In this document: piece after piece, positions 1,646 through 54,064 of the stretch | Layout: each line of letters begins with the position of its first letter | Numbering within the stretch: the first letter of the stretch is position 1 | Program-made: the position numbers and the translations under genes | Source of the DNA: a virus | IMG/VR virus record: IMGVR_UViG_3300025785_000009 | Coordinates: 1-64,000 of that record | Strand: one strand, 5' to 3' | Length of the DNA stretch: 64,000 nt | The notes under the pieces: generated by a model | Seen by the model: only the letters and a program-made list of their open reading frames with translations | Told to the model about the DNA's origin: nothing | Databases searched by the model: none

Positions 1646-1719
1646 TGGAGCGGGACAGGAGAATCGAACTCCTAACCGAAGATTGGAAATCTGCTGTTTT
1701 ACCATTAAACTAGTCCCGC
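1646..1719 (-). tRNA. tRNA-Gly (UCC)
   Basis: Acceptor GCGGGAC/GTCCCGC, anticodon loop TTTCCAA (TCC), T-loop TTCGATT and encoded CCA. Its first 10 nt overlap the 3' end of the radical SAM gene at 1710-2819, whose TAG stop is tRNA nucleotides 8-10. Confidence 0.95.
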
Positions 1720-2819
1720 ACAAACACATCTTCTACTACGTTACGCATAATGAGTTGTTTAAACTCGGCTGGATCTGCTGCTTTTGGCGCACAAAATCCA
1801 CAGCGACAATACTCTTTCTTACATTTGATAATGGGCATACCTGAGGCCAATTGTGTTTTCAATGTTGCAATGATCTTTCCATCATCAACGTATCCTAGTG
1901 GCTCAACACGACCAGTGGTACTCATACGGCAATCTTTGTTGGTAAAAACTGCACGATCTACCTGTCGCAGGAACAAAAAGAACCAGTTCACGCTACACGA
2001 CCAACCTTCAAATCCTTGACGCTGCACAAAGGAGACATTGCTCTTTAGGTCACCATTTACACTCAAACGCCGTCCGCCACAACAGGCGCGACCTTCGTCA
2101 ATGGCCTGTACTGTGTCTTTGGTTTCAGTTATGGGAATCATCCAAAATGTTTTTAATTCGTTAAACTGTTGGCCGGTGTAAGTCCATTCCTCACCGCGGT
2201 TGTCCAAGGGCTTGACCACGTGACGTATGTTGTGATACTTGCAAAAATCTATTATAGACTTGCTGTCATCAAAGTATACAGGTTCGTTGTGCATCATAAC
2301 AATGCATTTGAATCTACGATTGTGTTCCTTGAGATACAAAATATTGTCCAAAAATTGTTGTTTTTGTTTGGGCAAATTCTCTGCGTGGTAGCTTACTGTA
2401 AACTCATCCACCAACGGAACTATTTCAGCCCAACGTCTGGGACCAACAATGGCATTGGTAGTACAGGTCACTGTCAGGTGCCAGCGATCCTGATATGGTT
2501 CGTAGCGACTGTGACACTCACGCAGGATCTCTACTATGTCAGGATGAAATACACTTTCACCACCGTAAACATTTAACACAACTTTGCGCTGACTAGGTCG
2601 TTTGTGTTGCATATATTGATCCACATACCTGTACATAAAATCAATTGATGCTAGGCATTCTTCCAAAGGAGGATGCTGAGTTGTGTTGTCGTGTCCCCCA
2701 TCTAGACCACTTGGGCAATATGAGCAATCCAAATTACATAATTTGGTCAATTCCCAATCTAGTAAAAAGGCCGGTACATTGGCAGGATCTAATGCAAATG
2801 CTATTGAGTTAACTGTCAT
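1710..2819 (-). CDS. Radical SAM protein with C-terminal cysteine cluster
   Basis: 369 residues. The canonical CxxxCxxC motif that binds the catalytic [4Fe-4S] cluster is at C28, C32 and C35 in CNLDCSYC. A GGE-like motif (NVYGGES) follows. The C-terminal region has a CCGG pair and a dense set (CKKEYCRCGFC) typical of SPASM or twitch auxiliary Fe-S domains, which favours peptide or anaerobic-maturase-type chemistry over simple SAM cleavage. The substrate is unknown. The start overlaps the upstream nitronate-monooxygenase-like gene by 4 nt, so the two are probably translationally coupled. Its stop lies inside the tRNA-Gly gene. Confidence 0.8.
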   Translation of the reverse strand: MTVNSIAFALDPANVPAFLLDWELTKLCNLDCSYCPSGLDGGHDNTTQHPPLEECLASIDFMYRYVDQYMQHKRPSQRKVVLNVYGGESVFHPDIVEILRECHSRYEPYQDRWHLTVTCTTNAIVGPRRWAEIVPLVDEFTVSYHAENLPKQKQQFLDNILYLKEHNRRFKCIVMMHNEPVYFDDSKSIIDFCKYHNIRHVVKPLDNRGEEWTYTGQQFNELKTFWMIPITETKDTVQAIDEGRACCGGRRLSVNGDLKSNVSFVQRQGFEGWSCSVNWFFLFLRQVDRAVFTNKDCRMSTTGRVEPLGYVDDGKIIATLKTQLASGMPIIKCKKEYCRCGFCAPKAADPAEFKQLIMRNVVEDVFVRD

Positions 2820-4678: not shown

Positions 4679-5629
4679 TTAACTTTTACGGATGCTGTCT
4701 ACCAAACCTGGTAAAAATACGGAATCATACTTGGCATACAATGGTTCTGTCAATGCTTCGAACTTGGCCATTTCTTCTGCTGATAATTCTTTGTATGTTA
4801 CACCAGTTTCAGCTGGATCTGCTTTGGCCAGCTTGTCGCTGTCTTCAACGGACCACTTGCGCTCTAAACGTGCAGCATTGATAGCAGCTTGGCTTAGTTT
4901 GGCTTGTAGATCTTCGCTTAAACTGCTCCACCATTTCTCGCTAACGATAATGCTGGTCAAGAACAAGCTGTGTTTTGTATCTGTAACATAACGCTTGTTG
5001 GTCTTGTTTACAGTGGCCAACAAACGTGGAACTGTTGTGTCAACTGCATCGTGCTGGTCGCCTTCTGCGTGAACAGCTGCCCAGTAGTCTTCAATAGCGT
5101 GTGGATCAGGTTGACCGCCAATGGCTTCGATTGTGTCGATACCGATTGGGTTTGTGCCTGTATAAAAACTTAGATTTTTAAAGTCTGCCAAAGATTTGAT
5201 TTCTTCGTCACTGGCAACAATACGGAAACCACCTGAGTATGTAAAAGCTAAACCACGTGCTGGTGATTTTTCTTTTAGCTCGCTCAACATAGCTTGGCCG
5301 ATTTCGCCTTCTAGAACTCTAGTAGCGTGGTCGTGATCTTTAAATAGGAATGGTAGTTCCAAAGCCATAAAAGCTGGAACGTTCCACTTCCATAATTGGC
5401 TAATATGCAACTGGCTCATTTCAATTTTGCCTTGGTCCATATAAACCATTGGATTTTCTCTTGTGCCATTGTTGTGCTTTTCAGCATATTCTGTAGCAGT
5501 AAGAATTTCGATGTCAATTGCACCGTTTGTGCTGTTGCGTACTTCTTCAGCAAAAGCTTCAGCTGTACGCAAAAATAGATGTACTGGCTCGTGAGCAATT
5601 AACCACTTAATTTTGTTTGTTTGTTGCAT
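4679..5629 (-). CDS. TRAP transporter DctP-like substrate-binding protein without signal peptide
   Basis: 316 residues matching the TRAP extracytoplasmic solute-binding family (DctP): KIKWLIAHE at the start, LWKWNVPAFMALELPFLFKDHDHATRVL, GLAFTYSGGFRIV, and a middle IGGQPDPHAIEDYWAAVHAEGDQHDAVD. Family proteins capture carboxylates in the periplasm and hand them to DctQM membrane subunits. Here the protein starts directly at the mature domain with no signal peptide, and no DctQM genes are nearby. It would stay in the cytoplasm or enter virions. The start at 5629 has a good Shine-Dalgarno (CAGGAG) and a TATAAATA element 23 nt upstream, so late expression is likely. Confidence 0.8.
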   Translation of the reverse strand: MQQTNKIKWLIAHEPVHLFLRTAEAFAEEVRNSTNGAIDIEILTATEYAEKHNNGTRENPMVYMDQGKIEMSQLHISQLWKWNVPAFMALELPFLFKDHDHATRVLEGEIGQAMLSELKEKSPARGLAFTYSGGFRIVASDEEIKSLADFKNLSFYTGTNPIGIDTIEAIGGQPDPHAIEDYWAAVHAEGDQHDAVDTTVPRLLATVNKTNKRYVTDTKHSLFLTSIIVSEKWWSSLSEDLQAKLSQAAINAARLERKWSVEDSDKLAKADPAETGVTYKELSAEEMAKFEALTEPLYAKYDSVFLPGLVDSIRKS

Positions 5630-11753: not shown

Positions 11754-12509
11754 CTATTTTCGTTCTATATCTGTTTCGTCACAGCGTGAGCCATATTGTA
11801 TTTCTACTATTTTACACGGCTCTGTGAAAGGGTTTGCCAATTGGTGCCATTCGTTTACCAGTATACTGTACTGATCGTGCCGGTTAAGAGTTTGTGACGG
11901 CATTTCGTATCCGTTGTTGGTCAATGAACGAACTACACATTGACCTTCACTCACGTGCCAGTGTTCCCAACGTTCCGCGTGTCGTTGCATACTCAAACTT
12001 TGCCCAGGGTTTACAGTAAGTTCTTTTACTTTGGTGCCAGGCACTTCGTGTAGCACACGATAGTAACCCCAAGGACGTTCTGTACGGGGTGCTTTCCATT
12101 CTTGCAAAATCCAACTGCTTGAATTGGCTTTGTTTTCCCCGCCTACACCAAATACAAATTCTACACCCTCTACTGACATTTCAGGAATATTATCCGGGGT
12201 GCGGTCGCCACCGTTGGCAAAGATAATTTTGGCATCGGGATAGTGGGCTTGAACCTGTTGTATCAGGTGTCTCGCTGAACCGTCCTCGTCGTCAAAGGTA
12301 TAAACTTCGTCCACCATGGACAAATTGTTTACTATGCAAAGTCGTTCATTCCAGGGCATAAATGCGCGACCTTTTTTGCGTTCTAGCCACTCGTCACTGT
12401 TGATTCCCACAATCAGCAAATCGCCCAAGGTAGACGCAGCTTTCAAGTACGCAATATGCCCACTGTGCAAAGGATCAAATCCGCCGCTTACTACTGCAAT
12501 TTTTGTCAT
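11754..12509 (-). CDS. Cytidylyltransferase / mannose-6-phosphate isomerase-type cupin fusion
   Basis: 251 residues in two domains. Residues 1-about 135 are a nucleotidyltransferase with GGFDPLHSGH (HSGH at 15-18), as in HldE/RfaE2 and glycerol-3-phosphate cytidylyltransferases. Residues about 145-251 match the type II phosphomannose isomerase cupin (ERPWGYYRVL, MQRHAERWEHWHV, NEWHQLANPF). The first domain would activate a sugar- or polyol-phosphate; the second could isomerise or bind a sugar phosphate. The combination suggests nucleotide-sugar synthesis for surface glycan or DNA decoration. It lies between a methyltransferase and an unknown gene in the same operon. Confidence 0.85.
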   Translation of the reverse strand: MTKIAVVSGGFDPLHSGHIAYLKAASTLGDLLIVGINSDEWLERKKGRAFMPWNERLCIVNNLSMVDEVYTFDDEDGSARHLIQQVQAHYPDAKIIFANGGDRTPDNIPEMSVEGVEFVFGVGGENKANSSSWILQEWKAPRTERPWGYYRVLHEVPGTKVKELTVNPGQSLSMQRHAERWEHWHVSEGQCVVRSLTNNGYEMPSQTLNRHDQYSILVNEWHQLANPFTEPCKIVEIQYGSRCDETDIERK

Positions 12510-14602: not shown

Positions 14603-14807
14603 CCTCTTCGTCGTTTTGAGCTGTGTATTCTTTGAGTGCTTTTTTCAATATGTTGTCAGATGTGCCGAATTCCTGCAGTTCAACATCGCCCAACATATCA
14701 ACCAGTACACTCATAAGATTATCGGCTGCTTCCTGACGATCTTTGCTAGGTATATATTGTTTTAAAATAGTGTATGTCTCAATGAGAACTTCTACGTCGA
14801 TGCTCAT
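14574..14807 (-). CDS. Small acidic hypothetical protein (77 aa)
   Basis: 77 residues with an amphipathic N-terminal half and a very acidic C-terminus (NDEEGEEDKDGDW). The start overlaps the uvsX stop by 4 nt (ATGA), so it should be translated with uvsX. It may bind a basic or DNA-binding partner, but no family is recognised. Confidence 0.65.
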   Translation of the reverse strand: MSIDVEVLIETYTILKQYIPSKDRQEAADNLMSVLVDMLGDVELQEFGTSDNILKKALKEYTAQNDEEGEEDKDGDW

Positions 14808-15922
14808 TCTACTGTTTCCTCTTTTTTGGTTTTCTTTGTTTTTTCTTCAACTACTGCATCAACTGCTGCTTCAAGCTCTTCGATGTTGGCTTGCTTTTGA
14901 TGTGGGTTGGCAACAAAATCTACCATGGCTCGATCCAAACAAGAATCCTCGTTGCGTTCCCACGCCTTACGGAACTTCTTGATAATTTCACCATCGGCCA
15001 ATGTGTACACCAGACTGTTGCCTTCTTTCTTCAGCAGGTCTTTGCCTTCAAACAAGTCTACTAGACCTGAGTACGGATTCATACCTTCTTCGTATGGAAT
15101 CTTGACCTGGACAGATTCAAATGGTTTAGCGTAACGAGTTTTCATAATCTTACAAGCGGCGCGAATACCTTTGACTTCTGAGATCTTGTTGCCGTCTTCG
15201 TCTTCTTTGAGCTTTAACTTACGCATAGCAACCACAATAGAGCTGGCATAGATAAAGCCCTGACCACCCGAGATCTTGTCATCGGGATCAAACATATCTT
15301 GGCTAGCGTATGTGTGTGCTGTGGTAACCAAGCCAATGTTTAAACTGCCAAACATATTGACACAGTTACGAACCAAGGCAGCCAACGCTTTGGGTTTACG
15401 ACCCATATCGCCCTTCATATCGCCTGCTTCAAATTGGTTAACGTCTGTGGGTGTCAACAACATACCCAATGAGTCAACCACAAACAACACTTTGGGACGT
15501 TCTGTTTCTGGTAGAGTTTTGTATTCTTTAACAAACTCTGAAATCATCTTGCCCACATCGTCAATCATGGCCATATTTAATTTTAGCAGTTTGTCCTCGC
15601 TGGTGTCTACGTCTAGTGCGTGTAACCATTTTTCATCCAATGCATTTTCACTATCAACCAAGATAACATAAATGCCTTGCTTTTGTGCGTTGGATACTAG
15701 GTTACCCGAACAGATAAAACTTTTACCTGCACCAGATTCGCCAGCAAACACAGTGACTTTACCTAGCGGTACACCTTTGTGGAAGTCTCCACTGATAAGA
15801 TAATTGAGAGCATAGTTGTTGGTTGAGATCCAATCTGTTGGATCAGTAAAGCCCACGGAGATACCGTCAATGCTTTTGGTAATGCTCTTGCGAAATTTAC
15901 TTACGTCGAATGGTTTAGCCAT
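14804..15922 (-). CDS. uvsX: UvsX, RecA-like recombinase
   Basis: 372 residues (T4 UvsX is about 390). Walker A GESGAGKS at 61-68, Walker B near LFVVDSLGML, then the L1/L2 region with TTAHTY and KISGGQGFIYAS. It forms ATP-driven filaments on ssDNA for strand exchange, recombination-dependent replication and repair, together with gp32 and UvsY, both in this operon. The C-terminus is acidic and lysine-rich. Its start overlaps the radical SAM gene upstream by 8 nt. Confidence 0.95.
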   Translation of the reverse strand: MAKPFDVSKFRKSITKSIDGISVGFTDPTDWISTNNYALNYLISGDFHKGVPLGKVTVFAGESGAGKSFICSGNLVSNAQKQGIYVILVDSENALDEKWLHALDVDTSEDKLLKLNMAMIDDVGKMISEFVKEYKTLPETERPKVLFVVDSLGMLLTPTDVNQFEAGDMKGDMGRKPKALAALVRNCVNMFGSLNIGLVTTAHTYASQDMFDPDDKISGGQGFIYASSIVVAMRKLKLKEDEDGNKISEVKGIRAACKIMKTRYAKPFESVQVKIPYEEGMNPYSGLVDLFEGKDLLKKEGNSLVYTLADGEIIKKFRKAWERNEDSCLDRAMVDFVANPHQKQANIEELEAAVDAVVEEKTKKTKKEETVE

Positions 15923-17069
15923 AATGATTTTCCTTGATAAAATGATAAAAACTTTTAAATACTGCTTGACTACTTATACCTCTACGCTGATCCAAATCAG
16001 CAATTTCCTTGAGACTCTGCTCAATGTTGGCTGCAAAAGGTTGTTGAATATAGTTCAGCATATTACGTAATCCATCTTCCAATAGATATCCTGGTTGTTC
16101 AGAGATATGATATTGCAGTTTTAGTTCTACTGATTTTAACATATCTTTTGGTAAATGTCTAATGTTTAGGTATTCTGGTGTCAACAACGGGCCCAGCACA
16201 AAACTGTTGTTATGGAAACCCAATCCTTTTAGATAATATATACACTCAAATATACTCAAGTAGTTCAACAGAAAGTGCAACATATTGAATGATATTTTAT
16301 GGTTGAGCTGTTTGATTGTGCTCAAATTGTCTAAAAAGTCTCGCCACCGGCCGCCGTATCGAATGTATTCAAATTCTTCTTCGATTGAGTCAATGCTCAC
16401 AATCCAGTGTACATTCTTGAACTCACATATACGTTCAAACACACGAGTGTCCACTTTGCTGAGATTGGTATTGATACGCAGATTCACATCAGGATCCAGT
16501 AGATCCAACAACTCCAGGTTTTCCTTCATCAACAAGGGTTCGCCGCCGGCCATATACACGTGTTTTAGTGTGGGCGCACGATCCAAGATATACTGTTTGA
16601 ATTCGGCACGTTGTTCGTCAGTGGGCACCGCAGGATGTATCTTTAATTCATCAGCCCAACGACTGCTGAACTTGGGACCACAATATGTACAGGCAAAATT
16701 GCACAGGTTGGTCCAACGTACATCAACAGTTTGTAGATCAAAATTTTGTTCGGAGTAAGTAGACGGTGGCACATTTTTGAGTTCACGTATGTAAAACACA
16801 CGATCGCTAATGTGTTCAAAACCACGTTTACCTTTATCTAGATCATAACACGGAGAACAATTTGGTCCTGGCTCACGATTGATCATATTAAACTGTGTGT
16901 GCATATTGGTAGGACCCATCAAGATCTGTTCGATGCTGTTGTCTCTGATGTTGCCTAGCTTGCCAGCACTACGAATACAGTTTTTAACGTCGCCGTCAAA
17001 GTTGTACATAAGCCCAGTCCAAGGCATAGGACAAAATGCAGGGTTGGTCAATATGTCTTTGGGTGTCAT
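15915..17069 (-). CDS. Radical SAM protein with N-terminal SPASM-like cysteines
   Basis: 384 residues. Catalytic CxxxCxxC at C123, C127, C130 (CNFACTYC), followed by MAGGEPLL for SAM binding. The N-terminal 75 residues carry C13, C31, C71 and C74, set out as C-x17-C-...-CxxC around FDGDVKNC and GNI, which resembles a SPASM-type auxiliary Fe-S domain placed before rather than after the barrel. The gene at 17596 has the same layout. Such enzymes often modify peptides or carbohydrates. No precursor peptide was identified. Adjacent genes overlap on both sides. Confidence 0.85.
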   Translation of the reverse strand: MTPKDILTNPAFCPMPWTGLMYNFDGDVKNCIRSAGKLGNIRDNSIEQILMGPTNMHTQFNMINREPGPNCSPCYDLDKGKRGFEHISDRVFYIRELKNVPPSTYSEQNFDLQTVDVRWTNLCNFACTYCGPKFSSRWADELKIHPAVPTDEQRAEFKQYILDRAPTLKHVYMAGGEPLLMKENLELLDLLDPDVNLRINTNLSKVDTRVFERICEFKNVHWIVSIDSIEEEFEYIRYGGRWRDFLDNLSTIKQLNHKISFNMLHFLLNYLSIFECIYYLKGLGFHNNSFVLGPLLTPEYLNIRHLPKDMLKSVELKLQYHISEQPGYLLEDGLRNMLNYIQQPFAANIEQSLKEIADLDQRRGISSQAVFKSFYHFIKENHYG

Positions 17070-17599
17070 ATTTTGGGACCTAGGCTGATATCAGCAATGG
17101 CCAGATTGTTAGCTTCGGCCATTCTAAATGTTTGTACTAGTATTCTAGCCCACGTTGCAGGATCGGCTGCCGGTGGACTGGTAGTACCTGGTTGTGTGGC
17201 AATCCATCCAGGTCTGATCACTGTGATATGTGGACCACGTGGTGTCTTATACCTCAATTGATGTGCAGCCAACTCTAGGCTGATCTTTTGTATGCGATAC
17301 TCATCCATACCTTCCACTGTGCTGACCGGTTGCTGAGTCATCATTGTGCTGATCACCCAGATCCGTTTATCTAAATCTGCCCATCGGCGATGCATTTCAA
17401 ACAGCAATTCTGTTTGTGCAAATCCGGCCTGTGCATTGCTAACAAACAAGTCGCAAGGCTCAATGAGATCTGCTACTTTGGCAATGTTTCTGATGTTGTG
17501 TCCGGTACGCCGACTCAGGCCCACAATTTCCTCGCCATAAAATGCTTCAGCAAGTGCTTGCCCAATGCCGGCTGTGTGTCCGGTAATTGCTATTTTCAC
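17066..17599 (-). CDS. Short-chain dehydrogenase/reductase
   Basis: 177 residues, shorter than the usual 250. It has the NAD(P)-binding GHTAGIG (7-13), the NAQAG strand in place of NNAG, and the catalytic YxxxK at Y101/K105. The conserved Ser is probably in VISTMM. The C-terminal substrate lid is reduced. Fully embedded between two radical SAM genes with 4-nt overlaps, it probably oxidises or reduces their product or substrate. Confidence 0.85.
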   Translation of the reverse strand: MKIAITGHTAGIGQALAEAFYGEEIVGLSRRTGHNIRNIAKVADLIEPCDLFVSNAQAGFAQTELLFEMHRRWADLDKRIWVISTMMTQQPVSTVEGMDEYRIQKISLELAAHQLRYKTPRGPHITVIRPGWIATQPGTTSPPAADPATWARILVQTFRMAEANNLAIADISLGPKI

Positions 17600-18480
17600 T
17601 CAATGCCTCTCAGTTGTTTTTGTTCTTGTATGTATGCCTCTAAGGCTGCTTCATCGGTATTATTGACATCCAATACCGCAGGATGTTTTAGGTATGCGTA
17701 TTCGTGATCAATTCCGTGTAACTTTGCAAATGCAACAATCTCAGGTAACTGCTTTACATTCAATCTGCTGACTGTGGTCCATAAGTTTAATCGGACTGGC
17801 ATACGTTTGTATTCCATTAAATTAGCGTAGAACTTGTCCCACTTGATAGGCCAGCGTACAAAATCGTGTACGTCTTGTACGCCATCAAAACTGACGGTGA
17901 CAGTGACATCGATGCCGCGGTTGACCAAGTCTACTAATTCGGTCAATACGGTACTGCCATTTGTGTTTAGTCTGATACTTTCAACATTGGGCGGCAAATT
18001 GCGTATGACCTGTCGGTAGTTTTTGCTATGGCTGGGTTCGCCACCATTCAGGTCCAGGTGCACAATTCTCTCTTGTGGTAGTGCCCAAAAGCGATTGGTA
18101 TTGTCAACTATGGTATACTGTTTGGATTTCAAACTGCCAATCTTGGTGCTTAGGCCTTCGTGGCAGGTCATACAGGCACTATTACATACATTGTCTAACA
18201 CACCACCCACAGTTAGATAGTCTGGGCGTGTTTGTTGACTGTCAAATTCTATACTGTGTGTGCGTACACTTACGTTGGATTCGCGTTCGGTTTCTTCACA
18301 ACGTCGACACTCACTGGGCCACAGATCTTGCTCAAACTGTTCACGTATTTTGCGTAACCATACGCTAGAATCCATTTGTTCCAGGCTATCAAATTGTGCA
18401 GGGTTGACCATATGGCCACAGCGACTAACTGTTCCGTTATGGTTAAAGCGTACAAAATGATCTAGTCTAGGACAGCGCAT
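17596..18480 (-). CDS. Radical SAM protein, second N-terminal SPASM-like type
   Basis: 294 residues. Catalytic CxxxCxxC at C99, C103, C106 (CNSACMTC); NGGEPSHSKNY is the SAM-binding GGE motif. N-terminal C3, C21, C58 and C61 repeat the C-x17-C-...-CxxC layout of the neighbour at 15915, so the two are probably paralogues. It lacks the longer C-terminal extension of that protein. It overlaps the sulfotransferase-like gene by 19 nt and the SDR by 4 nt. Confidence 0.85.
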   Translation of the reverse strand: MRCPRLDHFVRFNHNGTVSRCGHMVNPAQFDSLEQMDSSVWLRKIREQFEQDLWPSECRRCEETERESNVSVRTHSIEFDSQQTRPDYLTVGGVLDNVCNSACMTCHEGLSTKIGSLKSKQYTIVDNTNRFWALPQERIVHLDLNGGEPSHSKNYRQVIRNLPPNVESIRLNTNGSTVLTELVDLVNRGIDVTVTVSFDGVQDVHDFVRWPIKWDKFYANLMEYKRMPVRLNLWTTVSRLNVKQLPEIVAFAKLHGIDHEYAYLKHPAVLDVNNTDEAALEAYIQEQKQLRGIE

Positions 18481-19076
18481 AAGTCTCGGCTTCGTTGAAT
18501 TGTTTCTTTGTATAGTTCGGGGTACTTGACCTTGATGTGTGCCAGTATCATTGCAAATGTGACAGTTTGATCTCTAAGGTCTTCAAACAGTATCTTGTCC
18601 AACTGCAAATAAAACCATAGTTGTTTGTTGTCTTGGAAACGATTTATCAGGCTTTGATCTCTAGCCAAGGTGTTCCAGGTTTCGCCAATGGTTGAATCTA
18701 ATTCGTCTGTGGTCTTGACAGTTATCCAAATGCCATTGGTATGTCTGTGCAAGTTCATGATCCAATGAAACTGTAGTGCAAAATGACGATCTAGAAACAA
18801 ATATTGTTCTATCAATGATAGAGTAGTTGCTCTATCAAACTCAGGATGGTACGCTAGATAAGTTTGTACACCCGATACATAACGTTCAAACGGATCACGC
18901 AGATACACCGTCACACAACCAACTTTACTTATCTGTTCTGGTGAGAGTGTGCGTAAACTTTTTTCTTTGAGTCCGCTGGAACCGTTTTTAAAAATAGGGT
19001 AGACATAGTGGTTAGCAGATACTTCAAGTATCTCGCACTCGTCGGGAAATAGAATAGGATCTATATATGATAACAT
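18462..19076 (-). CDS. Sulfotransferase-like protein
   Basis: 204 residues. FKNGSSGL (about 29-36) fits the 5'-phosphosulfate-binding loop and YLRDPFERYVSG (58-69) the 3'-phosphate motif RDPxxRxxSxY of PAPS-dependent sulfotransferases. The substrate is unknown; a sugar, lipid or radical-SAM product would fit the operon. The ATG at 19076 is preferred over the upstream TTG at 19082. A UUCG hairpin directly precedes it, and no strong Shine-Dalgarno is visible. Confidence 0.65.
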   Translation of the reverse strand: MLSYIDPILFPDECEILEVSANHYVYPIFKNGSSGLKEKSLRTLSPEQISKVGCVTVYLRDPFERYVSGVQTYLAYHPEFDRATTLSLIEQYLFLDRHFALQFHWIMNLHRHTNGIWITVKTTDELDSTIGETWNTLARDQSLINRFQDNKQLWFYLQLDKILFEDLRDQTVTFAMILAHIKVKYPELYKETIQRSRDLCAVLD

Positions 19077-19085
19077 AAGCAAGAA

Positions 19086-19105
19086 GTGGGAGCCGAAGCC
19101 CCCAC
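19086..19105 (-). terminator. UUCG-capped hairpin after gp32
   Basis: On the minus strand GTGGGGGC-TTCG-GCTCCCAC forms an 8-bp stem (one G-U) closed by a UUCG tetraloop, 20 nt after the gp32 stop. The following sequence is only moderately T-rich. It may be a partial terminator or an mRNA-stabilising 3' end that lowers expression of the downstream genes. Confidence 0.55.
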
Positions 19106-19125: not shown

Positions 19126-20100
19126 TTACTGCTTACGATTGCGAATCATCGCTAGGATGTCTTCGGCACGTTTGCTACTTGGTGCAGCTTCGGCAGCTGG
19201 AGCAGCTACTGGTGCTGTTGCTACTGGTGCATCATCTTCATCAACAGGATCAGCTGACACGGCTGGTGCTGGTGCGGAAGCGTCTGCGGCTGGTGCGGCA
19301 TTTGGAGTATCCAAACCGTATGGTTTGTAATACGCACCCCATTTGTCTGCATCATATGGTTGACCATCTACTGATGCTTCAAACATTTCTTTAAGAACTT
19401 TGAGTTCTACTTCGGTTGGTTTCTTGGGCAAGAAGTCACTCAAGTTAAACAGACCGTGTTCGTCGATTGCGGCTTGTTCTTCTGCGGTCAGTGCAGATTC
19501 TTTGCGTGACCATTTGCTTGTGCTGTAGTCAGCGTAGCCACCTTTGGAAGTTTTAACAATTTGGAAATCCAGGCCAGCTTGATAATCAGTTGGCAATTCT
19601 TCCATTTCTGGATCCATCAAAGCTGCTTTGATGATGTTAAAAATTTGTGGGCTGATTGTAAAACGACGAATTGGATTAGCCGGAGTCTTGTCATCGCTCA
19701 ATGCATTTTCACGCACAAAGCCTTGAAACACATAACTCTTCTTTTTCCAATACTTGCGACCCATTTCTTCTAGACTAGGATCTTTGAACCAAGGACGTAC
19801 TTCTGCCAAGATTGGGCAGGCTTCGCCGTACATTTCCATACAAGGAACTTGTACTACTACTGGTTTTGAATCTGCTTGACCTTTGACACCAGCAAATGGC
19901 AAACGGATCATTGCACGTTCAGCCCAAAAGAATGAATTCTTGGTGTTGCCGTCGGGTAGAAATCTGATACGAGTGGTGGAACCTTCTGCAATGTTCCAGT
20001 GTGGATAGATAGCGTTGTCGCCACCTGCTTGTTTGTTACCTGCGCCACGGTTTTCTGATGCTTGAAGCTTTGCGCGAATTTCTGCTAATGTTGTAGCCAT
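19126..20100 (-). CDS. gp32: gp32 single-stranded DNA-binding protein
   Basis: 324 residues (T4: 301). The N-terminal basic region precedes the OB-fold core with HWNIAEGSTTRIRFLPDG and YWKKKSYVFQGFVREN, as in T4-like gp32. A zinc-site-like segment has two cysteines (QVPCMEMYGEACPI). The acidic, Ala/Pro-rich linker leads to a C-terminal helix (KRAEDILAMIRNRK), where partner proteins bind. It coats replication ssDNA and works with UvsX/UvsY in the same operon. The start at 20100 has an AAGGAG Shine-Dalgarno, and a sigma70 promoter lies about 65 nt upstream. Confidence 0.93.
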   Translation of the reverse strand: MATTLAEIRAKLQASENRGAGNKQAGGDNAIYPHWNIAEGSTTRIRFLPDGNTKNSFFWAERAMIRLPFAGVKGQADSKPVVVQVPCMEMYGEACPILAEVRPWFKDPSLEEMGRKYWKKKSYVFQGFVRENALSDDKTPANPIRRFTISPQIFNIIKAALMDPEMEELPTDYQAGLDFQIVKTSKGGYADYSTSKWSRKESALTAEEQAAIDEHGLFNLSDFLPKKPTEVELKVLKEMFEASVDGQPYDADKWGAYYKPYGLDTPNAAPAADASAPAPAVSADPVDEDDAPVATAPVAAPAAEAAPSSKRAEDILAMIRNRKQ

Positions 20101-47935: not shown

Positions 47936-50900
47936 TTAAACTGCGATATAATCTTTCTTGATTCTCACTTGGTTACCAGCTGAAGCACCTGTGAACTGCA
48001 ACAATGCGTTTGAACCGCTTTGTGTTGCACTCAATGTACCCAAGCTAGAACCTGTTGATACTACACCGTAAGTTGTTACTGTTGCAGTTGTACCATCACT
48101 GATTAACAATGCTTCCATAACTTGGTAGCTTGAACCGTTAGTAATTTGTACAACGTACTTGGCACTACGGAACTTGGTATTGTCAACTGTGTCAATTGTA
48201 GTAGCACTTGCACCAACTGATACGTTACCAATTGCACTAACTTGTGCACCTGTTGTGCTCCAATATGTTGTATTGGTTGGTGTGCTTGTGCCAGTTGAAA
48301 TGTATACGCCGTTGTTGTCGGCTGATATACCCATATAACCATTGGCACTTGCAATGCTTGAAACAGATTGTGTTGTAGTTAGGATACGTACATCAATGAT
48401 ATCGCCAGATGCTGGGATTTCAGTGAATGTCAATGTTGTTCCACTAGTTACAGAGTAAGCCAATGTTGGGATCTGTACCACACCGTTGATGCTAACAATA
48501 ACGCCAGCTGTTGTTGTGCTTTGTGTCAATGTCCAACTTGATGCTGATCCGTCAGCAGTAATCTGTTGATCTGTAATCAATGTAAATGTTGAACCCGAAC
48601 CTTGCCAACCTGAACCTGTATAATATTCAACGCTGTTTGAGTAGTTGTTGAAACGTATCATACCTGCTACGTCTGTACCACCCGAACTACTTGGACGTTG
48701 TGCGTTTGAACCAACTGGTAACAAGATAGCGTCTGTGGAGTTGATGATCAACTTGGCGCCAGTTACTAGGTTACCTGTTGTAGCTGTATTACCAATTACA
48801 ACTTGATCGTATGCACTAGCTGAGTGTGCCCAAATCAATGTACCATCGTTTTTACCTTTGGCAATAAAGTCGCTACCAGCTGTTTGGCTACTGTTAATTG
48901 TAACTGCGTTACCAAACGTTGCATTAGCAGTATGTGTTGAAGTGCCAGTTACAATCAATGCACCGGACACGTTTGCACTAGCCAATGTAGCTGCGCCACT
49001 TGTGCTCAATGTTGTAAATGCACCGGTTGATGCTGTTGTAGCACCAATTGGTGTTGAGTTTACACTACCGCCTGTAACCACTGCGTTGGCTGTTGACAAG
49101 TTTGTTACGTTCAAGTTTGTTACGTTTTCTAGTGTAATACCAGTCAATGTACCGCCAGTAATCTGAGCATTTGCTGTACTGAAGTTTGTGGCAGTTACGT
49201 ATGTACCTGTTACGTTTGTACCAGTTACGTTTGTAGCTGTAGCTGTTGTAAATGTACCAGCTGCCGGCGTTGTTCCGCCAATTACCACGTTGTTGATAGT
49301 ACCACCACTCAATACTGCATTACCAGTACTCAAGTTGGTTGGAGTAACGTAAGTGAATGTACCGTTTGTAGCTGTTACACCAGTTGTGGTCAATAAACCA
49401 GTACCCGGATTGTATGTTAACGAGCTGTTTGTAATAGGTGCCAAGTTACCAGTTGTTGCACTCAAGAACGCTGGGTAATATGTACCGTTTGTGCTGGTTG
49501 TTGTTGTAGTGATGTACAATGCAACGTTAGAACTTGTTGATGCACCGGCCAAGCTACCATAAATTGTACCGTATACGCCACCAAGAGCAACAATGTTACC
49601 ACCAATTACGTTACCTGTTATTGTTGCTGAGCCACTTGCTGTCACGTTAGTTGCACTAACGTTAGCCAATGTTGTAGCACCAGTTACACCTAGTGTGCCA
49701 CTTGCTGTCAAGTTAGTAAATGCACCAGTACCTGGTGTCACGTTACCAATTGCTGTAGCTTGTAAACCGCTTGCTGTAGCTGTAGTTAAAGTGGTTGCAC
49801 CAGTTACACCTAGTGTACCACCTACAGTAGCATTGTTTGTTACTGCGGCACTTAACAATGTAGCAGCACCAGTTGTTACACCAGCCAATGTTGTAGCGCC
49901 AGTTACACCCAATGTACCGCCTACAGTAGCATTGTTTGTTACGCTTGCGCTGTTTAAAGTAGCTGCGCCACTTGATGTCAATGTTGTGAAAGCACCGGTT
50001 GATGCTGTTGTAGCACCAATTGGTGTTGAGTTAATACTTGTTGCTGTTACTGCACCAGCTGTTAAACCAGCCAATGTTGTAGCACCGGTAACTGCCAATG
50101 TACCACCAACTGTTTCGTTACCAGTGATGCTTGCGCTAGCCAATGTGGCTGCGCCACTTGAGCTTAATGTTGTGAATGCCGCAGTACTTGGAGTTGCATT
50201 GCCAATTGGTGTGCTGTTGATACTTGCAACACTCAATGAGCCTGTAGTTAATGTACCAGAAACTGTTGCACTAGTAAAGTTGCTGCTTGTGGCTGTAATG
50301 TTGTTAACACCACTGATGTTACCGTTTGAACCAGATGTTGTAAAGTTGGCTGCTACTAAATTGCCAGTAACAGTTGCGTTGCCACCAACAGTTGCGTTGC
50401 CAGTGATGCTTGCGCTAGCCAATGTGGCTGCACCGCTTGTACTTAGTGTTGTGAATGCCGCAGTACCTGGAGTTACGTTGCCAATTGCAGTTGCTTGCAA
50501 GCCACCACTTACAGTCAAGTTACCTGTGTCTGTTTCGTTGGTTACACTCAATGTGCCTAGTGTTGTAGCACCAGTTACGCCCAATGTACCACCAACTGTT
50601 GCGTTGTTTGTTACGCCCAAACTGTTTAGTGTGCTTGCGCCACTTGAACTTAATGTTGTAAATGCACCAGTACTTGGAGTTGCGTTACCAATTGGTGTAC
50701 TGTTAATAGCTGGCATTACAACACCAGTTGCAGGAGCTGCTGTAACTGCTACACCACCAATTTGGATTGTGCTACCACTAATCCATAATGTTTTCCACTG
50801 GTTAGTTGAGCTACCTAAATTGTATGTTACGTTTGCACTTGGGATTAGGTCGCCGCTGAATGTTGATCCAGCACCAACAATCAAGTTACCGCCAACGTTG

Positions 50901-53900
50901 GCGCTGGTAGTTGTAACCAAGCTGTTTAATGTAGCTGCACCACTTGAGCTTAATGTTGTGAAAGCACCAGTGCCTGGTGTTACGTTACCAATTGCAGTTG
51001 CTTGTATGCCGTATGCTGTTACTGTGCTTAGTGCTGCAGCGCCTGTTGCGTTCAATGTGGTAAATGCACCAGTACTTGGTGTGTATGAACCAATTGGAGT
51101 AGCTTGGATACTACCAGCATAAATGTTACCAACAATGCCCGCACCGCCTGCCACTTGTAAGGCACCCGATGTTGTGCTTGTTGATGTGTTGGTTGAGTTT
51201 GCTGTTAATGTACCAGCAACAACCTCTGTACCAGTAATTTGTACTTGTGTTGTGTTTAGGTATGTCAATGTACCAGCAACACTCAAGTTGCCACCAATAA
51301 ACACAGCACCGCTAATACCAACACCACCAGCAACTACCAATGCGCCAGTTGTTGTACTTGTACTTGCTGTACCACTTGCGGCAACAATGTTACCGTTGCT
51401 GATGTGTACACCAGAGTTGATCAATGTTGTAAACGAACCTGTTGAAGGTGTTGCGTTACCAACCGGTGTGTTATTCAAACTAGTTGCTGTTACTGCGCCA
51501 GCTGTTAAACCAGCCAAAGTAGTTGCACCAGTTACTGCCAAAGTACCGCCAACAGTTTCGTTACCTGTTATGCTTGCACTGGCCAATGTGGCTGCGCCAC
51601 TTGAACTTAATGTTGTAAATGCGCCAGTACTTGGAGTTGCGTTACCAATTGGTGTATTGTTTAACGATGCAATACTGATCGAAGCGGCTGTCAATGTGCC
51701 GTTTACTGTTGCATTGTTTGTTACAGTTACGCTGTTTAGAGTAGCTGCACCACTTGTGCTTAGTGTTGTAAAGGCTGCTGTGCCAGGTGTTACGTTACCA
51801 ATTGCTGTAGCTTGTAAACCACCGCTTACAGTCAAATTACCTGTGTCAGTTTCGTTGGCAACACTCAATGAACCTAGCGTTGTGGCGCCAGTTACACCCA
51901 ATGTACCACCAACGCTTGCATTGTTGGTAATACTTGCGCTGTTTAGAGTAGCTGCACCACTTGTGCTTACAGTTGTAAATGCACCAGTTGATGCTGTTGT
52001 AGCACCAATTGGTGTGTTGTTCAAGCTAGTAGCTGTTACTGCGCCAGCTGTTAAACCAGCCAAAGTAGTTGCGCCAGTAACGCCTAGTGTACCACCCACA
52101 GTAGCGTTGTTTGTTACGCTTGCGCTCAATAATGTAGCGGCACCAGTTGTCACACCAGCCAAAGTAGTTGCGCCAGTAACGCCTAGTGTACCACCAACAG
52201 TCAAGTTACCTGTGTCTGTTTCGTTAGCAACACTCAATTGACCAACAGTTGTGTTGCCAGTTACACTCAATGTGCCACTTGCTGTAATGTTGGTTGCGCT
52301 TACTGCAGCCAATGTACTTGCTCCAGTTGCGCTTAGTGTTGTAAATGCACCGGTTGAAGCTGTTGTAGCACCAATTGGTGTTGAATTCAAGCTGGTTGCT
52401 GTTACAGCACCTAGTGTTGTAGCACCACTTGAATTTAACGTTGTGAAAGCACCAGTACTTGGAGTTGCATTACCAACTGGAGTATTGTTGATGCTTGAGA
52501 ACGAAGCTGAAGCAGCACTCAATGTACCAGTTACAGTTAATGTACCGCCAACTGTTGCGTTGTTTGTTATGCTTGCGCTGTTTAAAGTAGCGGCACCACT
52601 TGTGCTCAATGTGTTTAGTGTTGTAGCACCAGTTACACCTAGTGTACCACTTGCTGTGATGTTGGTTGCACCAATGTTGGCCGCAGTTGTTGCGCCAGTT
52701 ACAGTTAATGTGCCGCCAACAGTTGCGTTAACAGTTACAGCCAAGCTGTTTAGTGTGCTTGCACCACTTGATGTTAATGTTGTGAAAGCACCAGTACCTG
52801 GTGTCACATTACCAATTGCAGTGGCTTGTAAACTACTTGCTGTAGCTGTAGTTAAAGTGGTTGCACCAGTTACACCTAGTGTACCGCTTGCTGTTACGTT
52901 GGTTGCACTTACAGCCGCCAATGTACTTGTGCCACTTGCTGCCAATGTTGTTACACTGGTTGCACCAGCTGTTAAACCAGCCAAAGTAGTTGCGCCAGTT
53001 ACGCCCAGTGTGCCACCTACAGTAGCATTGTTTGTTACTGCGGCGCTGTTTAGCGTAGCTGCACCACTTGAGCTTAATGTTGTGAAAGCACCAGTGCCTG
53101 GTGTTACGTTACCAATTGCAGTGGCTTGGATTGCGCCAGCTGTAGCTGTTGACAATGTAGTTGCGCCAGTTACAGCCAATGTGCTTGATAATGTAGCAGC
53201 ACCAGTTACACCTAGTGTACCACTTGCTGACAATGTTGTGAATTTACCAGTTGAAGCTGTTGTAGCACCAATTGGTGTTGAATCTAAGCTGCCGCCTGTA
53301 ACCACTGCGTTGGCAGTTGAGAAGTTTGTAGCAGTTAATGTTGTAACACCTTCAATGGAAATGTTGGTTAAACTACCACCAGTGATAACTGCGTTGGCAG
53401 TAGAAATACTGGTTGCAGATAATGTTGTAAATGCACCAGTTGAAGCTGTTGTAGCACCAATTGGTGTTGAATTCAAGCTACCGCCTGTAATTACAGCATT
53501 AGCTGTAGAAAAACCAGTTGAAGCAGCTAATGTTGTAAAGGAACCTGTGCTACCTGAAATTGGAGTTGCAGTAATACCACCAGCCGATAAATTGTTGGTA
53601 ATACTTGCACTGACCATTGTGGCATTACCGACTTTGACGTTGGCAAAACCTGAGTTAGTAACGCTGGTAACTTTGCTGCTACCACCGCCTGTGCTGGTTG
53701 TTGTTGCTACTGCAATAAACGCACCAGCGTTTTCGTCCCAAACGAATGCAGTATTAACCGCACCGTAACCAGCCAAGGATGACAAGTTACGATTGATAAA
53801 CATACCAATGTCATAACCGGCCAAGCTGCCAGTGTATCCGTTGTTGAAAACAACAGTAGGGTCATTGATAAATGTATTAACTGAGTTAATTGTACTTGAG

Positions 53901-54064
53901 TTGCCGCTAACACTCAAATTACCAGTGATAGTAACATCAGAAGAAAGTGTTAATGAGGGGCTAAACAATGCACCTGTCAGTGTGCCAGATGCAATTTTCT
54001 GTGCTGTGATGGTAGAATCAGTGATCTGATTATTTTTAATTCTTGTAATATTACCGGCGCTCAT
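47936..54064 (-). CDS. Giant repetitive fibre protein (2042 aa)
   Basis: 2042 residues. After a short N-terminal module (about residues 1-135; SAGNITRIKNNQITDSTITA, TINSVNTFINDPTVVFNNG) there are many near-identical copies of phrases such as TPIGATTASTGAFTTLS, SGAATLNSASVTNNATVGG and TLGVTGATTLAGLTAG. Near the C-terminus are IVSINGVVQIPTLAY...FTEIPASGDIIDVR (shared with the 862-aa protein) and FRSAKYVVQIT...IAV (shared with the 376-aa protein). It is probably a very long beta-helical tail fibre. Shine-Dalgarno AAAGGAT and a GATAAATA promoter precede it. Three long antisense frames are repeat by-products. Confidence 0.85.
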   Translation of the reverse strand: MSAGNITRIKNNQITDSTITAQKIASGTLTGALFSPSLTLSSDVTITGNLSVSGNSSTINSVNTFINDPTVVFNNGYTGSLAGYDIGMFINRNLSSLAGYGAVNTAFVWDENAGAFIAVATTTSTGGGSSKVTSVTNSGFANVKVGNATMVSASITNNLSAGGITATPISGSTGSFTTLAASTGFSTANAVITGGSLNSTPIGATTASTGAFTTLSATSISTANAVITGGSLTNISIEGVTTLTATNFSTANAVVTGGSLDSTPIGATTASTGKFTTLSASGTLGVTGAATLSSTLAVTGATTLSTATAGAIQATAIGNVTPGTGAFTTLSSSGAATLNSAAVTNNATVGGTLGVTGATTLAGLTAGATSVTTLAASGTSTLAAVSATNVTASGTLGVTGATTLTTATASSLQATAIGNVTPGTGAFTTLTSSGASTLNSLAVTVNATVGGTLTVTGATTAANIGATNITASGTLGVTGATTLNTLSTSGAATLNSASITNNATVGGTLTVTGTLSAASASFSSINNTPVGNATPSTGAFTTLNSSGATTLGAVTATSLNSTPIGATTASTGAFTTLSATGASTLAAVSATNITASGTLSVTGNTTVGQLSVANETDTGNLTVGGTLGVTGATTLAGVTTGAATLLSASVTNNATVGGTLGVTGATTLAGLTAGAVTATSLNNTPIGATTASTGAFTTVSTSGAATLNSASITNNASVGGTLGVTGATTLGSLSVANETDTGNLTVSGGLQATAIGNVTPGTAAFTTLSTSGAATLNSVTVTNNATVNGTLTAASISIASLNNTPIGNATPSTGAFTTLSSSGAATLASASITGNETVGGTLAVTGATTLAGLTAGAVTATSLNNTPVGNATPSTGSFTTLINSGVHISNGNIVAASGTASTSTTTGALVVAGGVGISGAVFIGGNLSVAGTLTYLNTTQVQITGTEVVAGTLTANSTNTSTSTTSGALQVAGGAGIVGNIYAGSIQATPIGSYTPSTGAFTTLNATGAAALSTVTAYGIQATAIGNVTPGTGAFTTLSSSGAATLNSLVTTTSANVGGNLIVGAGSTFSGDLIPSANVTYNLGSSTNQWKTLWISGSTIQIGGVAVTAAPATGVVMPAINSTPIGNATPSTGAFTTLSSSGASTLNSLGVTNNATVGGTLGVTGATTLGTLSVTNETDTGNLTVSGGLQATAIGNVTPGTAAFTTLSTSGAATLASASITGNATVGGNATVTGNLVAANFTTSGSNGNISGVNNITATSSNFTSATVSGTLTTGSLSVASINSTPIGNATPSTAAFTTLSSSGAATLASASITGNETVGGTLAVTGATTLAGLTAGAVTATSINSTPIGATTASTGAFTTLTSSGAATLNSASVTNNATVGGTLGVTGATTLAGVTTGAATLLSAAVTNNATVGGTLGVTGATTLTTATASGLQATAIGNVTPGTGAFTNLTASGTLGVTGATTLANVSATNVTASGSATITGNVIGGNIVALGGVYGTIYGSLAGASTSSNVALYITTTTTSTNGTYYPAFLSATTGNLAPITNSSLTYNPGTGLLTTTGVTATNGTFTYVTPTNLSTGNAVLSGGTINNVVIGGTTPAAGTFTTATATNVTGTNVTGTYVTATNFSTANAQITGGTLTGITLENVTNLNVTNLSTANAVVTGGSVNSTPIGATTASTGAFTTLSTSGAATLASANVSGALIVTGTSTHTANATFGNAVTINSSQTAGSDFIAKGKNDGTLIWAHSASAYDQVVIGNTATTGNLVTGAKLIINSTDAILLPVGSNAQRPSSSGGTDVAGMIRFNNYSNSVEYYTGSGWQGSGSTFTLITDQQITADGSASSWTLTQSTTTAGVIVSINGVVQIPTLAYSVTSGTTLTFTEIPASGDIIDVRILTTTQSVSSIASANGYMGISADNNGVYISTGTSTPTNTTYWSTTGAQVSAIGNVSVGASATTIDTVDNTKFRSAKYVVQITNGSSYQVMEALLISDGTTATVTTYGVVSTGSSLGTLSATQSGSNALLQFTGASAGNQVRIKKDYIAV
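48960..53640. repeat. Degenerate tandem repeats within the 2042-aa fibre gene
   Basis: Imperfect repeats of about 45-65 codons whose modules are mixed rather than in strict order. DNA copies are often nearly identical (for example GTTGTAGCACCAATTGGTGTTG), so recombination or misassembly could alter copy number. Boundaries are approximate. Confidence 0.75.

Follow-up and report, generated by a model that had tools for sequence, protein, structure and literature searches.

The gp32-uvsX interval

What are four overlapping metabolic genes doing in the replication operon of a phage, and do they belong together? The question is raised by a 64,000-nucleotide stretch of viral DNA (the window; positions 1 to 64,000 of IMG/VR record IMGVR_UViG_3300025785_000009), where the interval between gp32 and uvsX holds, on the minus strand, four genes overlapping head to tail. 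In order from gp32, the products are ST (a sulfotransferase-like protein), rSAM_B (a short radical SAM protein), SDR (a short-chain dehydrogenase/reductase) and rSAM_A (a second radical SAM protein), and the genes stand where the original prediction placed them (Table 1). From ST to rSAM_A the consecutive overlaps are 19, 4 and 4 bp, with a further 8 bp shared by rSAM_A and the start of uvsX. Translation of the genes is therefore probably coupled, and their expression probably goes with that of the replication operon. The ST start is taken as the ATG at 19076, as in most relatives; an in-frame TTG also stands at 19082. The cassette lies between a terminator-like stem-loop and uvsX, and an analogous stem-loop is found between gp32 and uvsX at two empty sites (L092 and L094). 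UvsX has 63-70% identity to the UvsX of T4-like jumbo phages.

Table 1. Features of the cassette and its surroundings in the window
Feature	Position	Strand	Basis
gp32-like single-strand DNA-binding protein, upstream flank	19126-20100	-	phrog_1192, 224 bits
Stem-loop after gp32, GTGGGGGC-TTCG-GCTCCCAC, terminator-like	19086-19105	-	8 pairs, fold z -3.3
ST: sulfotransferase-like protein, 204 aa, first cassette gene	18462-19076	-	Fold comparison of AlphaFold model, conserved residues
rSAM_B: short radical SAM protein, 294 aa, four N-terminal cysteines	17596-18480	-	CxxxCxxC, model fold
SDR: short-chain dehydrogenase/reductase, 177 aa, GTG start	17066-17599	-	Invariant motifs, PDB profile matches
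rSAM_A: N-terminal-twitch radical SAM protein, 384 aa	15915-17069	-	NF033640, PF04055, PF13186
UvsX recombinase, downstream flank	14804-15922	-	phrog_97, 222 bits
HldE/RfaE-type nucleotidyltransferase fused to GMP-PMI-type cupin	11754-12509	-	TIGR02199 73 bits, TIGR01479 62 bits, PF01050, PF01467

Linkage and spread

Loci were collected from IMG/VR with ST, rSAM_B or rSAM_A as anchor, and with uvsX as a neutral anchor. All three enzyme anchors returned an identical gene order at the identical site. In all 69 readable loci rSAM_B comes next after ST, in 75 of 75 SDR stands directly before rSAM_A, and of the 61 rSAM_B loci that reach both flanks 55 have all four genes; the survey of co-occurrence thus finds the genes linked rather than occurring independently of one another. 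Since the order and overlaps recur across dozens of contigs, with ST identity down to 31-67%, the arrangement is not due to chance. The cassette is one co-inherited unit in T4-like environmental phages. Its site is an optional cargo slot, as 25 of the 69 uvsX-anchored loci have no cargo there and others have unrelated cargo. Purifying selection acts on each of the four genes, dN/dS being 0.03-0.10 against L017, the comparison with the least saturation at synonymous sites. After accounting for gp32 and UvsX, the distances of rSAM_A and rSAM_B are uncorrelated (partial r 0.02) and alleles have therefore been reshuffled, while those of SDR and rSAM_A are correlated (partial r 0.46, p 0.001).

Among candidate stretches in IMG/VR, 405 relatives of ST and 556 of rSAM_A were confirmed, and so wide a spread suggests a benefit to the phage. 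The cassette was not recovered from the isolate phages or bacterial genomes searched. A scan of 84,980 bacterial and archaeal species genomes with the rSAM_B and rSAM_A alignments, which required a short conserved stretch so that distant homologues may escape it, gave no relatives. Tblastn against isolate phages gave no match with rSAM_A or ST, and with rSAM_B only 23-31% identity over part of the protein, mostly in KVP40-type vibriophages.

The two radical SAM proteins

Ahead of their catalytic CxxxCxxC (C123-x3-C127-x2-C130 in rSAM_A; C99-x3-C103-x2-C106 in rSAM_B) both proteins have exactly the cysteine quartet to which the original prediction drew attention: C13-x17-C31 ... C71-x2-C74 in rSAM_A and C3-x17-C21 ... 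C58-x2-C61 in rSAM_B. The eight N-terminal cysteines and the CxxxCxxC motifs are invariant in 47 rSAM_A and 56 rSAM_B sequences. The layout is not the rarity it was thought to be, as it defines a curated NCBIfam subfamily, NF033640 (N_Twi_rSAM), with the quartet in front of the radical SAM core as in rSAM_A; nine proteins of the same phage score above its cut-off. rSAM_A reaches 251.1 bits against the cut-off of 170 (profile 2-397 of 398, residues 10-377). rSAM_B, about 100 residues shorter and in its own long-branched clade, scores 135.2 bits (profile 13-335) and so, on profile score, is a relative of the subfamily without being a member. The radical SAM core profile PF04055 gives 60 bits with rSAM_A and 24.5 bits with rSAM_B, the latter below the cut-off of 29.5.

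A permuted SPASM-like domain had been proposed for both. For rSAM_A this holds: the SPASM profile PF13186 matches residues 13-75 with 30.3 bits (cut-off 21.5), by which the N-terminal domain is a genuine SPASM homologue ahead of the core, with a putative auxiliary cluster. For rSAM_B the match to this profile stays below the cut-off, at 13 bits, even though the four cysteines are invariant. The rSAM_B model (pLDDT 89.4) has a radical SAM core fold, and the PDB matches listed for it are radical SAM proteins, the best of them NifB (Z 9.8), with SkfB (Z 9.5), MoaA (Z 9.2), the viperin fold (Z 8.3) and anSME (Z 8.2) also among them. The sugar dehydrogenase BtrN and MoaA are twitch-type radical SAM enzymes and resemble the cassette enzymes in combining a radical SAM core with a small auxiliary-cluster domain; their cysteine-rich domain, however, is C-terminal, whereas that of rSAM_A and rSAM_B, with its putative cluster, is N-terminal. 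The further proposal that the two arose by duplication gains no support, as each forms its own 100/100 clade with no supported union in the tree. Their union gave p-AU 0.057, and on these phylogenetic grounds a duplicate pair is neither supported nor firmly rejected.

Sulfotransferase, dehydrogenase and optional oxygenase

ST matches no sulfotransferase family in Pfam, its sequence profile retrieved nothing useful from the PDB, and Foldseek alone gave a weak match (E 0.44). Structure nevertheless backs the sulfotransferase call. With an AlphaFold model (pLDDT 88.8), the best 20 VIA-align matches in the PDB are all sulfotransferases (Z 6.8-3.6), the first other fold following at Z 3.4, and a BFVD homologue annotated 'Sulfotransferase family' has 56% identity and TM 0.94. 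The fold is common to the PAPS-dependent heparan sulfate 3-O- and N-sulfotransferases and SULTs, with 3-OST-5 at Z 6.8 over 143 residues, and the model is closest to the carbohydrate (heparan) enzymes; in contrast to these, ST has just 204 aa, and identity to the top structures is 10-20%. Over 46 sequences K30, N31, R60, R65, G69, H98 and Q102 are invariant and S68 nearly so, with H98 and Q102 as candidates for the catalytic base or acid. The K30-N31 loop and R60-x7-S68, which we take to be the counterparts of the 3-OST 5'-phosphosulfate loop and 3'-phosphate site, resemble the first-loop lysine and R-x7-S pair of PAPS-dependent sulfotransferases.

In SDR the motifs TGxxxGIG (T6, G7, G11, G13), N55-A56 and Y101xxxK105 are invariant, which include the TGxxxGxG and YxxxK of classical SDRs; its profile matches SDRs in the PDB (E 2e-6), and Pfam adh_short gives 11.6 bits, below the cut-off. 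A fifth gene, absent from the window and present in 33 of 80 loci, encodes a protein with the HxD...H...R signature of Fe(II)/2-oxoglutarate oxygenases (H80, H129 and R141 invariant and D82 in at least 90% of 21 sequences). Neither Pfam nor PHROG assigns it to a named family, and it has no sequence match in the PDB.

What the cassette may make

The reading we prefer, with a probability of roughly 45%, is that the cassette is a phage-borne pathway for tailoring a glycan or small molecule. Most likely the enzymes would act in series on a glycan, made by phage or host, or on some other small hydroxylated molecule. A difficult C-H step, for example carbon oxidation, epimerisation or dehydration, would fall to the radical SAM enzymes, and SDR would fix the product's oxidation state. 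Where the oxygenase is present it would supply a hydroxyl, and ST would transfer sulfate from PAPS to a hydroxyl or amine as a cap. The product may end up as a decoration on the cell surface or virion, with the exclusion of other phages as one possible benefit.

This reading is favored by the linkage, the conserved catalytic residues, the purifying selection and the heparan-type fold of ST, and by further genes. The HldE/RfaE-type nucleotidyltransferase and cupin gene, which gives the cassette a sugar-nucleotide setting, is kept downstream of uvsX with or without it. An APS-kinase-like domain at G000 128764-129603 (PF01583, a modest 30 bits), also present in G002 and G004, could on this profile match be a source of PAPS. 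Behind the tail-fibre-like genes of the same phage stand several NF033640 genes in a row, together with a carbamoyltransferase; as a cassette partner the carbamoyltransferase was rejected, since it does not track the cassette, being present in cassette-free G009 and G010. A glycan is also favored by the pelagimyophages, where radical SAM cassettes are reported within glycosyltransferase-rich, tail-fibre host-recognition clusters (PMC7029224). One marine T4-like phage is described with 12 radical SAM genes (PMC5332604). These two accounts share with the present phage many radical SAM genes near tail-fibre and glycan genes, but neither mentions a sulfotransferase, and as far as they were drawn on they show no fixed four-gene gp32-uvsX block. 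In the literature searched, no paper was found that joins phage, radical SAM, sulfotransferase and 'auxiliary metabolic'. The glycan reading is weakened by the lack of a glycosyltransferase within the cassette, by failure to find the APS-kinase-like gene in cassette-bearing G001 and G003, by ST having no Pfam match, and by the many SPASM/twitch enzymes that modify peptides, not sugars.

That last point leads to the strongest rival, in which the radical SAM enzymes act on a phage or host protein, RiPP-like or of the virion, and ST adds sulfate to a side chain, for example that of tyrosine. Peptides are frequent substrates of SPASM/twitch radical SAM enzymes (PMC8326336), and the matches of rSAM_B include the peptide maturase SkfB and anSME, if among many non-peptide enzymes. 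It is nonetheless unlikely: no recurrent small ORF, and so no candidate precursor peptide, was seen among unassigned cassette ORFs of at least 60 aa, the gene overlaps leave scant room for one, and an SDR and a 2-oxoglutarate oxygenase would be less usual partners. Considerably less probable is a role in nucleic-acid or nucleotide modification, with the cassette supplying a modified nucleotide to phage DNA or, as counter-defence, acting on nucleotide signals. Radical SAM enzymes do occur in some pathways of phage DNA hypermodification, the viperin fold is among the rSAM_B matches and the genes sit in the replication operon, but with the site empty or holding other cargo in relatives the location says little about function, and we know of no sulfotransferase acting on DNA. 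Unrelated auxiliary genes gathered in a hotspot with no common pathway, as the other cargo at the site and the reshuffled alleles might suggest, are already disfavored and very improbable, because set and order persist despite allele recombination (69/69, 75/75, 55/61) and SDR and rSAM_A distances are correlated.

For the glycan or small-molecule pathway it is conceivable, if at rather less than even odds, that it is self-contained and phage-specific, leading to a sulfated, radical-modified glycan or metabolite not known to occur in cells and kept intact across a large environmental phage family. Phages of this kind have about 10 twitch-type radical SAM enzymes each, and we found no account of their role. 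The cassette is a tractable entry to them: its gene order is invariant, empty sites allow comparison, the donor of ST, PAPS, is predictable, and a sulfated product would be traceable by 35S or mass shift.

A linked four-gene unit

The source virus record is 140,816 bases long, its bases 1-64000 being the window, and its TerL and UvsX most resemble the proteins of PA5oct, Phosso, Vibrio 2.275.O and CBB, which are large phages related to T4. On the minus strand gp32 is followed by genes for a sulfotransferase-like protein (ST), a radical SAM protein (rSAM_B), a short-chain dehydrogenase/reductase (SDR) and a second radical SAM protein (rSAM_A), and then by uvsX; the cassette genes overlap end to end, and the end of rSAM_A shares 8 bp with the start of uvsX.

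Linkage was followed in three surveys that overlap in contigs and lineages, so that their counts are not independent. All 80 IMG/VR loci anchored on rSAM_B have a single gene order, and among the 61 extending to both gp32 and uvsX, 55 carry the four genes, five ST and rSAM_B only, and one lacks rSAM_A. With ST as anchor, rSAM_B is next in 69 of 69 readable loci, a set that omits three stopping at a contig edge and one entering a cut rSAM_B. With rSAM_A as anchor, SDR stands immediately before it in 75 of 75, uvsX follows in all readable cases, and ST and rSAM_B lie upstream almost wherever the contig is long enough; one exception (L309) has a low-scoring radical SAM gene before SDR-rSAM_A, and ST was not found. 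SDR-rSAM_A without a preceding radical SAM gene was never seen where the contig reaches that far; the ST-rSAM_B pair without SDR-rSAM_A is found at times. The four genes are a unit, and coincidence is rejected.

Saturation at synonymous sites is lowest against L017, and this comparison gives dN/dS values of 0.095 for ST, 0.078 for rSAM_B, 0.026 for SDR and 0.041 for rSAM_A. Controlling for gp32 and UvsX (21 loci), distances correlate between SDR and rSAM_A (partial r 0.46, p 0.001) and between rSAM_B and SDR (0.32, p 0.001), and not between rSAM_A and rSAM_B (0.02). As the latter are uncorrelated while the set is kept, alleles have been exchanged within a maintained gene set, which argues for selection acting on the set.

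In some loci an optional fifth gene, of 157-215 aa, separates rSAM_B from SDR; the rSAM_B survey has 33 of these loci and the rSAM_A survey many. This gene matches no named family among the libraries searched; its invariant first H, second H and R and near-invariant D fit an Fe(II)/2-oxoglutarate oxygenase. In two copies the metal-site motif reads HxG instead of HxD, a change known from Fe/2-oxoglutarate halogenases.

The encoded proteins

rSAM_A, at 251 bits against a cut-off of 170, is a member of NF033640, the family with an N-terminal cysteine quartet, and has a genuine SPASM match N-terminal to its radical SAM core. The shorter rSAM_B (135 bits) is a relative, with a predicted structure that is a radical SAM core. 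All four N-terminal cysteines are invariant among relatives of each. The two families form one clade each, with no support in the tree for their being sisters. SDR retains the TGxxxGIG, NA and YxxxK motifs.

Although no Pfam sulfotransferase family matches ST, the best structural alignments of its model (pLDDT 88.8) are with PAPS sulfotransferases, 3-OST-5 heading the list at Z 6.8; rows 1-20 are all sulfotransferases and the next fold has Z 3.4. Foldseek matches are weak (E 0.44), the list nonetheless being headed by sulfotransferases, and a near viral homologue carries that annotation. A loop lysine, K30, and the pair R60-x7-S68, which we take to match the corresponding 3-OST residues, are conserved among relatives, as expected for predicted PAPS binding.

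A cargo slot between gp32 and uvsX

Among 69 newly fetched uvsX-anchored loci with both flanks visible, the slot is empty (16-95 bp) in 25, holds one or two small ORFs in many and other cargo in several; all four cassette genes occur in six, besides the previously collected L017 and L059. In L092 it is empty despite a UvsX 93% identical. A stem-loop lies 3′ of gp32 whether the slot is filled or empty, and the cassette is situated beyond it. Elsewhere the slot is occupied by, among others, radical SAM genes that lack the N-terminal quartet, an ST-like protein by itself (L109) or a different four-gene cassette. Because the slot is empty or otherwise occupied in relatives, the cassette's location is better read as a cargo hotspot than as a sign of a replication function. 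A second slot, which takes radical SAM genes encoding about 500 aa, adjoins the first between uvsX and the next gene.

Coordinates of the cassette flanks, alternative cargo and other features
Feature	Location	Strand	Remark
gp32	window 19126-20100	minus	upstream flank of cassette
uvsX	window 14804-15922	minus	downstream flank of cassette
Different four-gene cassette	L124 2369-5582; L138 3745-6958; L140 3745-6958		SDR; two proteins whose N-terminal loops are rich in glycine; one unknown
Radical SAM gene, second slot	L034 5136-6695		weak B12-binding-domain match
Radical SAM gene, second slot	L050 12580-14130		
Radical SAM gene, second slot	L082 14672-16168		
Radical SAM protein	window 1710-2819		conserved start SIAFALDPANVPAFLLDWELTKLCNLDCSYC; near homologues are gp32-uvsX cargo in L011, L096, L100, L105, L114
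Fifth gene with HxG	L077 2026-2655; L081 907-1554		
Six NF033640 genes	G000 (whole record) 116148-124731		L090 12091-18536 and L090/L091 junction
APS-kinase-like fusion	G000 128764-129603		L091 4764-5606
DctP gene	window 4679-5629		PF03480, 136 bits
Repetitive ORF	window 47936-54064		2042 aa; long mirror ORFs on opposite strand

Genomic setting and interpretation

Nine proteins of the whole record score above the NF033640 cut-off. Six of them are encoded shortly 3′ of tail-fibre-like genes and ahead of a carbamoyltransferase gene, five in an overlapping run, and strong counterparts exist in G001-G004. NF033640 numbers are similar in these four cassette-bearing records and also in G008, which has no cassette, so paralogue count is independent of the cassette; G009-G011 have one such protein or none. 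An HldE/RfaE-type nucleotidyltransferase-cupin fusion is encoded downstream of uvsX. Three of the five large records with the cassette, two of which are near-identical, have an APS-kinase-like domain that could be a PAPS source. In G000 this domain is fused to a HIGH-type nucleotidyltransferase-like domain; the counterpart, 83% identical, is in G002 and G004 only. The window also has a complete gene for a TRAP-type DctP solute-binding protein, unusual in a phage, and a highly repetitive ORF that is probably a tail-fibre or surface protein.

Radical-SAM-rich marine T4-like phages (PMC5332604) and radical SAM cassettes within phage host-recognition clusters (PMC7029224) are on record, so the kind of system is already known; within the literature searched, this gene block, with its fixed site and composition, appears to be new. 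The cassette and its setting point to a tailoring pathway with a predicted sulfation step, for which, we infer, a glycan or small molecule is a more likely substrate than a peptide or DNA.
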